Made by a program: the position numbers and the translations under genes. Positions 34,351 to 37,047 of a stretch of DNA of 37,047 nucleotides are shown one piece after another (position 1 is the first letter of the stretch; each line of letters begins with the position of its first letter). Source of the DNA: Nitrospirota bacterium (GTDB lineage: Bacteria; Nitrospirota; JACRHL01); NCBI GenBank assembly GCA_029881725.1, contig JAOUMB010000027.1, forward strand, positions 1 to 37,047, written 5' to 3'. The notes beneath the pieces are model-generated. The model searched no databases, was not told where the DNA came from, and saw nothing but the letters and a program-made list of their open reading frames with translations.

Positions 34351-34427
<77 letters not shown>

Positions 34428-34751
34428 TCGTAAATTTTTCAAACACTTAGGATGCGTGTGGTGGCATCCCGAAGTGGGCCTGTGCCCAAAGTGTGCCCTA
34501 AAGTGGCCACAGCCGCGCTGGCGGGCGAATCCGCAGCCGACGCATGACGATCGACGCAACTCTTGGCGCGGAGGCGCATTTTCGCATGGATGGACAGTTT
34601 GAACCAAGTGTGGATGGTGGGGCGGTGGGTGGGACAGAAAAACCAATCATCCAGTGGGCCTGGAGCAGACTTTCTCCATGGGGGTTGTGTGGCTACTGAA
34701 GCACTGCTATTATAGTCCTGTAGTAGTTATACCTCTTAGGTGGAGAGAGCC
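34428..34751. other. Gene-free stretch between the tRNA and the RHH-RAMA gene
   Basis: No gene is supported here. On the minus side it must hold the tRNA promoter, but I see no good boxes. A near-tandem repeat, tgtgcccaaag (34481-34491) and tgtgccctaaag (34492-34503), could be an old integrase arm site. On the plus side it carries the promoter at 34685-34713. Confidence 0.5.
34685..34713 (+). promoter_or_regulatory. Predicted promoter of the RHH-RAMA gene
   Basis: TTGTGT (34685-34690) and TATTAT (34708-34713) with a 17-base spacer, about 38 bases before ATG 34752, which has gagaga as a Shine-Dalgarno sequence. Confidence 0.5.
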
Positions 34752-35219
34752 ATGCCTAGAACAGTTTGCGTTCCGATCAGTGCCGACCTATACAACGAGT
34801 TCATCCTGCGCACGGGCAAGAGTGAGGATGTTGCCGCTTGGATTGAGGGCATTGTCGAGAACTTTCTCGATGACACGAAAGACGACCACCCAGCCTGGTC
34901 TGAGGAGTACTACGAGCATCTAGCTGACCAGGAGGCCGATGAAACCCTTGCGACCTATGGTCTGCCAGGAAAAGGGTACCACTGGCAAAGTGTGTTCCTG
35001 CCTAATGGTACCCGGCTACGGATGACATACCGAGGCCTTGAGCATTTTGCGGAAGTACGGCACCAGCAGATCATCTATGAAGGCGAATCGTGCTCACCCT
35101 CTGAGTTCGCCTCTCGCGTGGCAAGCAACACGAGCCGCAACGCATGGCGGGATATCTGGATGCGCCGCCCGACCGACAACGAATGGGTCTTTGCCGACGC
35201 CCTCAGGCGGCAGCAGTAG
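34752..35219 (+). CDS. Protein with RHH-like N-terminus and RAMA-like C-terminal domain
   Basis: 155 residues from ATG 34752. The first ~45 residues (VCVPISADLYNEFILRTGKSEDVAAWIEGIVENFL) look like a ribbon-helix-helix DNA-binding unit. The C-terminal ~75 residues resemble the RAMA domain found with restriction-modification enzymes and DNA-modification readers: NGTRLRMTYRGLEHFAEVRHQQIIYEGESCSPSEFA and SRNAWRDIWMRRPTDNEWVFADALRR. I infer DNA binding, perhaps of modified DNA, in a mobile or defence context. Both domain calls are from pattern, not search. Composition is poorer in G+C than the core genes. Confidence 0.6.
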   Translation: MPRTVCVPISADLYNEFILRTGKSEDVAAWIEGIVENFLDDTKDDHPAWSEEYYEHLADQEADETLATYGLPGKGYHWQSVFLPNGTRLRMTYRGLEHFAEVRHQQIIYEGESCSPSEFASRVASNTSRNAWRDIWMRRPTDNEWVFADALRRQQ

Positions 35220-35228
35220 GCCAGGGTC

Positions 35229-35348
35229 ATGGCGAAGCCAAAGTTAACATGCCACGCAGTAAAGCGGATCGAACAACGCGGGTTGCGACCAGACGATGAC
35301 GACGTCGGACATCGCGTCGACCGATTCCATTACAGTCCAGCCAGATGA
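35229..35348 (+). pseudogene. Possible fragment of a small DUF4258-like gene
   Basis: 39 codons from ATG 35229. LTCHAVKRIEQRGLRPDD resembles the N-terminus of small proteins with an H-A-x-x-R-x-x-Q-R-G motif. The rest does not continue the family, so it may be a truncated or shifted remnant. Weak evidence. Confidence 0.25.
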
Positions 35349-35488
35349 TTCCGCCATGGCACTCCCTCCCGTCCGTTCCGCTCAAACGCGGCATCGTACA
35401 CCCGGGGCATAAAGTCACGGGCGGCACGCGGAACAACAACCAGGTTCAGATCAGCGTATTGCTTACTGTACTTGACCCGAAACCGCAT
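35330..35488 (-). CDS. Possible small ORF downstream of the TOTE helicase
   Basis: 52 codons from ATG 35488; the frame is open to TTG 35566, seven bases past the helicase stop. MRFRVKYSKQYADLNLVVVPR and RVYDAAFERNGREG look protein-like in composition, but I recognise no family. It may be a fragment. Together with the plus-strand fragment it accounts for the 35220-35573 gap. Confidence 0.3.
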   Translation of the reverse strand: MRFRVKYSKQYADLNLVVVPRAARDFMPRVYDAAFERNGREGVPWRNHLAGL

Positions 35489-35573
35489 TTCCAGCGGGCC
35501 ACCTGGGCACCGGGTAAGATGGTGCAATCTGGATACTCGGCCGGCCTGTAGGTTCTTTGGACGCAAGGGCTGC

Positions 35574-36959
35574 TTACTTTAAGACCCCCGTGGCCTCGAA
35601 TAGCGCACCGACTCCATACTCAAGAATCCGGTACCCCATAGCCCGGTAGCCGGCCTGCCGCCGTTCCCACATCCGCGCTAGCGCGGGATGGCCCGCATCC
35701 ACGTAGTCGTGGATGCGGATGTCCGACTTGGTCGGGTGGTCCCGGTGCAGTCGCCCGGCGTACTGTTGCAGGGTGCCCTTCCAGGAGATCGGCATCGCCA
35801 GGACCAGGGTGTCCAGCGGCGGGTGGTCGAACCCCTCGCCGATCAGCCGCCCGGTGGCGAGCAGCACACGGGGGGCAGCGTCACCCAGTTCCTCCAGGGC
35901 GGACAACACCAACTTGCGCCGTTTCCTCGGCATCCGCCCGTGCAGCACGAACAGGTTGTCCAGACTGGTCGACAGGAGCCGCTCCAGCGCCTCCAGGTGA
36001 TCGGCCCGTTCCGTCAGCACCAGCACCTTCCGCCCCTGCCGGCAGGCGGCGCGCACATCGGCCACGATCCGGGCGTTGCGTTCCTCGTCCTTCACCAGAT
36101 AGCGGAACACCGCCTGGATGCCGGCCACGGTGTCCACCGGGATGGGGGCATTCAGCACCTGCGGGGCCACCTCCATCCGGGAGGGCGTGACCTCCGACCG
36201 GGCGGCGGTGTGCCGTACCGGCCCGCACTGCATGAAAATGATGGGCTGGTGCCCATCCCGCCGTACCGGTGTGGCCGTGAGGCCTAACACATACCGGGCG
36301 CGGGCCCGTTTCAGGATGGCCTCGAAGGAGACGGCCGAAAGGTGGTGGCACTCGTCCACGACGACCTGGCCGTAGCGCTCCACCATGCCATCCACCTCCC
36401 CCTTGCGGGCCAGCGACTGCATGACGGCGATGTCGATCCGCCCGGTCGGCTTGCGCCGGCCGCCACCCACCCTGCCGATAGCGCCGGGTTCCACGTCGAG
36501 GAACGACTGGAGCCGCTCGTGCCACTGGTCGAGAAGCTCGGTGCGGTGAACCAGGATCAGGGTGTTGACCGCGCGGTGCGCGATAATCGCCGCCGCCGCG
36601 ACGGTCTTCCCAAAGGCGGTCGGGGCGCACAGGACGCCCGCGTCGTGTTGCAGCATCGCCTCTACGGCCGTGGACTGGTCCGGCCGCAGCGTGCCGGAAA
36701 AGGTGATGGGAAGCGGCTCCCCTCCGTGGCGCTTGTCGTGGATGTCGAGTGCGATCCCGTTTCCGGCAAGCAGGTTGGTGACGGTGTCGAGGCATCCCCT
36801 GGGCAGGGCGATGTGGCGGGGATAGTTCTCTGCGCAGCCGATCACTCGTGGTTTGTCCCATACCGGAAAGCGCATGGCCTGGGCCTTGTGGAACTCCGGG
36901 TTCTGGAATGCTGCCAGGCGGATGAGCCGGTTGGCGAGCGGCTGGGGAAGTGGACTTGC
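35574..36959 (-). pseudogene. TOTE conflict-system primase-helicase, helicase part only (5' end cut by an insertion)
   Basis: About 461 codons of an SF2 helicase: APTAFGKT (Walker A form of this group), VVVDECHHLSAVSFEAIL (DECH box), LGLTATPVRRDGHQPIIFMQCGPV, VLTERADHLEAL, LLATGRLIGEGFD and LQQYAGRLHR. The frame extends 27 residues before ATG 36875 with AFQNPEFHKAQAM, which in this family joins an archaeo-eukaryotic primase domain to the helicase. It then meets an in-frame TAG (36962-36960) where the insertion sequence begins. The primase part is therefore outside the window or lost. A protein from ATG 36875 could still be made (433 residues). The TOTE name is from family memory. Confidence 0.8.
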
Positions 36960-37047
36960 CTAAAAAAAGTGGACAGCCTTTTATGACCTGACAAGGGAAA
37001 TAAGAGGAGATGTTCATGGGATCAGGAAAACAACGACTGTTCACAAA
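36957..37047 (+). mobile_element. Left end of an insertion sequence, probably IS3-like
   Basis: The helicase frame ends abruptly at about 36957. From there tgcctaaaaaaagtggaca looks like an IS3-type terminal repeat (TG...AAAAGT.GGACA). A short leader and the first transposase codons follow. The rest of the element, its right end and any target duplication are outside the window, so the family is tentative. Confidence 0.5.
37016..37047 (+). CDS. Start of an IS transposase ORF (cut by window edge)
   Basis: Ten codons from ATG 37016, behind aagaggag: MGSGKQRLFT. Many IS3-family OrfA proteins begin with a basic stretch followed by RxFT(x)EFK. An in-frame ATG at 37010 is the alternative start. 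Too short for more. Confidence 0.45.
   Translation, partial: MGSGKQRLFT

Follow-up and report, generated by a model that had tools for sequence, protein, structure and literature searches.

What was the gene that breaks off at the right-hand end of this contig, and did the insertion sequence that adjoins it cut it in two? The window, i.e. the whole stretch of 37,047 nucleotides that was analysed, is the entire contig C56 of a draft genome (2.96 Mb, 126 contigs), and it ends 97 bp into an IS3-family element. Next to the element is an open minus-strand frame at 35574–36950, which is the C-terminal part (458 codons and a stop) of a primase-helicase gene and on the gene strand starts with LPQPLANRLIRLAAFQNPEF. 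This half encodes an XPB-like SF2 helicase with Pfam matches to ResIII (3.8e-23), DEAD (1.5e-13) and Helicase_C (3.9e-07), and it is 60–68% identical to seven relatives that carry the primase-helicase fusion. The first in-frame ATG that remains is at 36873–36875 (minus strand) and leaves an ORF of 433 aa. A preliminary description of the window had placed an in-frame TAG exactly where the element begins; the TAG exists, but it lies at 36962–36960, 10–12 bp inside the element and not at its edge.

Two other features are found near this end. A tRNA-Arg (CCT) gene at window positions 34351–34427 (minus strand), some 1.1 kb away from where the helicase half ends, is perhaps an old integration site. 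For an ORF of 159 aa at 34740–35219, searches of Pfam, PADLOC, PHROGs and the related loci give no match.

The other half of the gene is at the edge of contig C2 (locus L009), which is 4804 bp in length. The preliminary description held that the insertion sequence had cut the helicase frame off from a primase part, and it predicted that the right end of the element, a target duplication of 3–4 bp and the rest of the primase frame would follow beyond the window. These are all present. Positions 1–119 of C2 are 100% identical to the element right end, and the sequence after it is AAGGTCCGC. The AEP-TOTE family (PF22548) is matched at one place in this genome, C2:297–980 on the minus strand, with an E-value of 2.7e-100 and 335.2 bits against a cut-off of 27, over positions 1–228 of 230. 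The profile searches that had been proposed, against AEP-TOTE and SF2, thus place the primase half in the former family and return ResIII, DEAD and Helicase_C for the helicase half. Since the predicted other half was found, chance is an implausible source of the pattern. The helicase half contains the conserved blocks APTAFGKT, DECHH, TATP and QYAGRLHR, and the primase half LAVDFDDADW and SRSGQGAH, all of which we take to be catalytic motifs. Neither half has an internal stop. Farther along C2, an ORF at L009:4373–4690 matches part of the MmeI N-terminal domain (1.2e-21) and is perhaps a restriction-gene remnant.

The element is 1245 bp in length, and one complete copy is found in the genome (C101:128–1372). 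Its ORFs match HTH_Tnp_1 and rve/HTH_21, and the larger one is an IS3 family transposase (NCBIfam NF033516; 1.4e-106, 356.8 bits against a cut-off of 160). With two overlapping ORFs, an IS3-type transposase, terminal inverted repeats and a short target duplication of 3 bp, all of which it shares with IS3 insertion sequences, the element belongs to the IS3 family. The window holds its left end with the inverted repeat (36951–37047, plus strand; 97 bp, 100% identical to the complete copy), including the first codons of orfA (HTH_Tnp_1; 37010–37047, plus strand), which reads away from the helicase half. Besides the complete copy, the genome has a 59-bp left-end remnant, lone left ends on C56 and C29, and a lone right end on C2, and the ends are 100% identical across these sites (59–119 bp compared, plus the complete copy). 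The remnant (L006:1373–1431) directly adjoins the complete element on C101, and this complete element shows no matching target duplication at its ends. No near-full-length DNA relative of the element is present among 604 matching plasmid records, none of which covers 80% of it; pieces occur in two of 30 related genomes and are short only (31–129 bp).

The lone left end on C29 cuts a second gene, which encodes the type I restriction protein HsdR (L007:806–3154, plus strand; element from 3155). HSDR_N (2.1e-35) and T1R_D3-like (4.3e-60) domains are present, and the cut lies in EcoR124_C. The remainder of HsdR is not found in the assembly, where EcoR124_C matches are limited to positions 1–66 of 260, and because the rest of this domain was not found, an insertion here is indistinguishable from an insertion plus deletion. 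The triplet that precedes the left end on C29 is ACC, not AAG, and C29 codes for HsdR. The right end on C2 therefore pairs with C56 and not with C29.

The junction itself is precise. The window letters just before the element are GGGGAAG, and the AAG at 36948–36950 is found again at C2:120–122, past the element right end. On the gene strand the duplication reads CTT, a leucine codon. When the two halves are aligned separately to the seven relatives with the fusion, they fall head to tail with zero residues missing; on a 789-aa Azotobacter protein, for example, the primase half aligns to residue 337, with one further residue unaligned, and the helicase half aligns from residue 339. Before the cut, a single frame held both the primase and the XPB-like SF2 helicase; it is now split.

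It should be pointed out that the join of C56, element and C2 is read from contig ends; the assembly collapses the element, and the interior of the copy at this site is unseen. This raises the question of whether the C56 and C2 ends are in fact not neighbours in the cell, and share a multi-copy element by chance or by recombination between copies. The element is indeed present at several sites, contigs break in it, and the remnant on C101 beside a complete copy without matching duplication is a sign of rearrangement. However, the 3-bp duplications agree, for which the chance is 1 in 64, the strand sense of the two halves fits, and the residues are exactly adjacent on intact relatives, such that non-adjacency appears extremely improbable.

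We therefore consider it very probable that C56 and C2 carry the two halves of one primase-helicase gene, which was recently interrupted by the IS3-family element with loss of its activity. On this reading the ancestral gene had ~814 codons, and its product was a primase of the archaeo-eukaryotic type (AEP-TOTE family) joined to an XPB-like SF2 helicase. The 1245-bp element went into a leucine codon (CTT) that lies between the two enzymatic parts, and AAG was duplicated. The primase frame is now 393 codons in length, with its stop inside the element; the 5′ half thus reads into the element and ends there, and therefore a primase with an element-derived tail could still be made. The helicase half lacks its own start and the element genes read away from it, and thus its product is probably not made. 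The loss is possibly partial, as an active primase could still come from the 5′ half.

One can also look at the split as tolerated, with primase and helicase now two separate working proteins and gene fission in progress. The cut does fall between enzymatic domains, both halves are free of internal stops, and the helicase half keeps its ATG. A simple scan of 35200–37047, on the other hand, finds no promoter-like site (0.4 expected in shuffles), and the element genes run in the opposite direction, which makes fission very unlikely. For the interrupted gene, the identical element ends and the two halves without other damage indicate that the event looks recent, in keeping with the recent loss that was first suggested. 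The event is probably an ordinary, recent gene loss by insertion.

The term ‘TOTE-type conflict helicase’, given to the gene at the outset, stands as far as the Pfam family name is concerned, but a conflict ‘system’ is not supported. As expanded in the accessible text of one source, TOTE stands for TPR, OB, TBP and Effector (PMC12458937). TBP (PF00352) has no match in any of 41 genomes, i.e. this genome and the genomes in which 40 of the 80 related loci lie. Among the controls for this search, 4 of 14 genomes match, all of them archaea; the controls include no known TOTE operon, and a divergent bacterial TBP could escape. No TPR or OB-fold protein is seen in the four C2 ORFs scanned, few ORFs flanking the gene on these contigs, or when 116 neighbours of relatives are grouped into 106 families and the 25 most frequent ones are inspected. 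The primase is thus in the Pfam family that bears the name of the TOTE conflict systems, but the TBP component is unmatched and a TPR/OB partner is unrecognised in the ORFs scanned; because of the unmatched TBP, we refer to an AEP-TOTE family protein and not to a system.

Among known proteins, AEP-TOTE primase-helicases of Proteobacteria are close relatives. An Azotobacter salinestris plasmid protein, WP_152390051.1 (‘DEAD/DEAH box helicase family protein’), has the same domain order, with 68% identity to the helicase half and 65% to the primase half; its frame is unbroken, whereas the one described here is cut by the element. The primase half also matches the CRISPR-associated PrimPol profile of PADLOC, PDLC01465 (6.5e-109). 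The profile of the CRISPR-associated primase-polymerase type A1 (NF040561) gives a match (1.2e-27, 96.6 bits) below the cut-off of 200. These CRISPR-associated proteins (NF040561, PDLC01465) have a homologous primase domain, but here the domain is fused to a helicase. When a relative with unbroken fusion is compared with solved structures, XPB-type helicases are best (8.6e-17), and the primase part finds two ‘TPR_REGION domain-containing protein’ sequences (3.9e-09 and 4.2e-09), which are presumably CRISPR-associated primase-polymerases. The split gene is a further AEP-TOTE primase-helicase, and its present state is well explained.

The accessible portions of two papers do not contain the primase-helicase fusion (PMC4158269; PMC5512222), and no described function for the family was found in the literature searched. 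The domains, together with the neighbours of relatives, suggest at low confidence that the intact protein would act on invading DNA, the helicase moving along the double strand and the primase laying primers or filling in strands.

A primase match at E 0.001 or better is found in nine of 61 genomes (this one and 60 relatives), and eight are above the cut-off. Three other genomes of the same family were searched and gave no AEP-TOTE match, which suggests that the gene was gained horizontally. Relatives of the helicase half are present in 293 plasmid records. The related loci used for further comparison are the best 80 among the matches listed from species genomes, two of them from one genome. 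Their neighbours, 116 given of 206 listed, include RhuM (11) and HSDR_N, Methylase_S, Fic, DUF1016_N and YgjP-like (three each). That defence genes are enriched near relatives stays an impression, because the neighbour count lacks random loci as a control. The intact gene may have been one among the genes of a defence-rich, horizontally moved DNA.

Decay of the primase-helicase, judged from the reading frames, appears to be common among related loci. An internal stop in frame is present at eight of the 80 (L043, L051, L070, L073, L075, L077, L081 and L106), and L081 has two; this fraction is not a rate, because the sample is biased towards unbroken matches and draft assemblies are part of it. 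A TAG at one conserved tryptophan (reference residue 264) is common to three of the eight. The stop of L091, at residue 785 of 789, is probably the natural end and is kept apart from the eight. In these eight loci the frame is broken by a stop codon, whereas here it is cut by the element.

The comparison of loci also points to a partner gene. A tblastn search matches a gene of ~181 aa at 26 of 87 loci (the 80 genome loci, six plasmid stretches and the C2 of this genome); some of these matches cover short pieces only, and at several loci the sequence stops near the gene. In 18 of the 87, the partner runs into the primase-helicase gene, whose start it overlaps by 8 bp (the last five coding bases of the partner plus its stop codon); 15 of these overlaps come from comparing locus matches and three from annotation. 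Scanned copies of the partner have no Pfam match above cut-off. One copy weakly resembles DUF6155 (2.8e-4, below cut-off) and three others show no such resemblance; nothing on DUF6155 was found in the literature searched. A structure predicted from 17 sequences is all-helical with a mean pLDDT of 86.8, and thus the protein is probably all-helical. The model matches designed and natural helical repeats, up to Z 10.9, with no family standing out and no separation of TPR from other repeats, and a Foldseek search gives no match at E 0.001 or better.

This genome has its own partner copy (C2:2869–3522, L009), 60–73% identical to 12 of the 13 other cluster members. It is on the opposite strand beyond a Fic gene, and is thus displaced and inverted. 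The comparison does not support a conserved role of the 501-aa Fic gene: besides itself, it has matches in six of 100 loci, with 25–50% identity over 34–162 residues. Fic domains occur in three of the 116 neighbours mentioned above. It is an even call whether the proteobacterial AEP-TOTE primase-helicase and its upstream, start-overlapping and probably co-translated helical partner form a two-gene module of their own, distinct from the TOTE system, of which this genome would keep the displaced partner with the main gene cut.

The locus is a clean case in which an insertion sequence has disabled a conflict-type primase-helicase gene, and the same element has also cut a type I restriction gene of this genome. 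Losses of this kind can go unnoticed at contig ends, and both sides are recoverable. The recurrent partner gene provides a testable handle on a widespread family, and is the lead most worth following.
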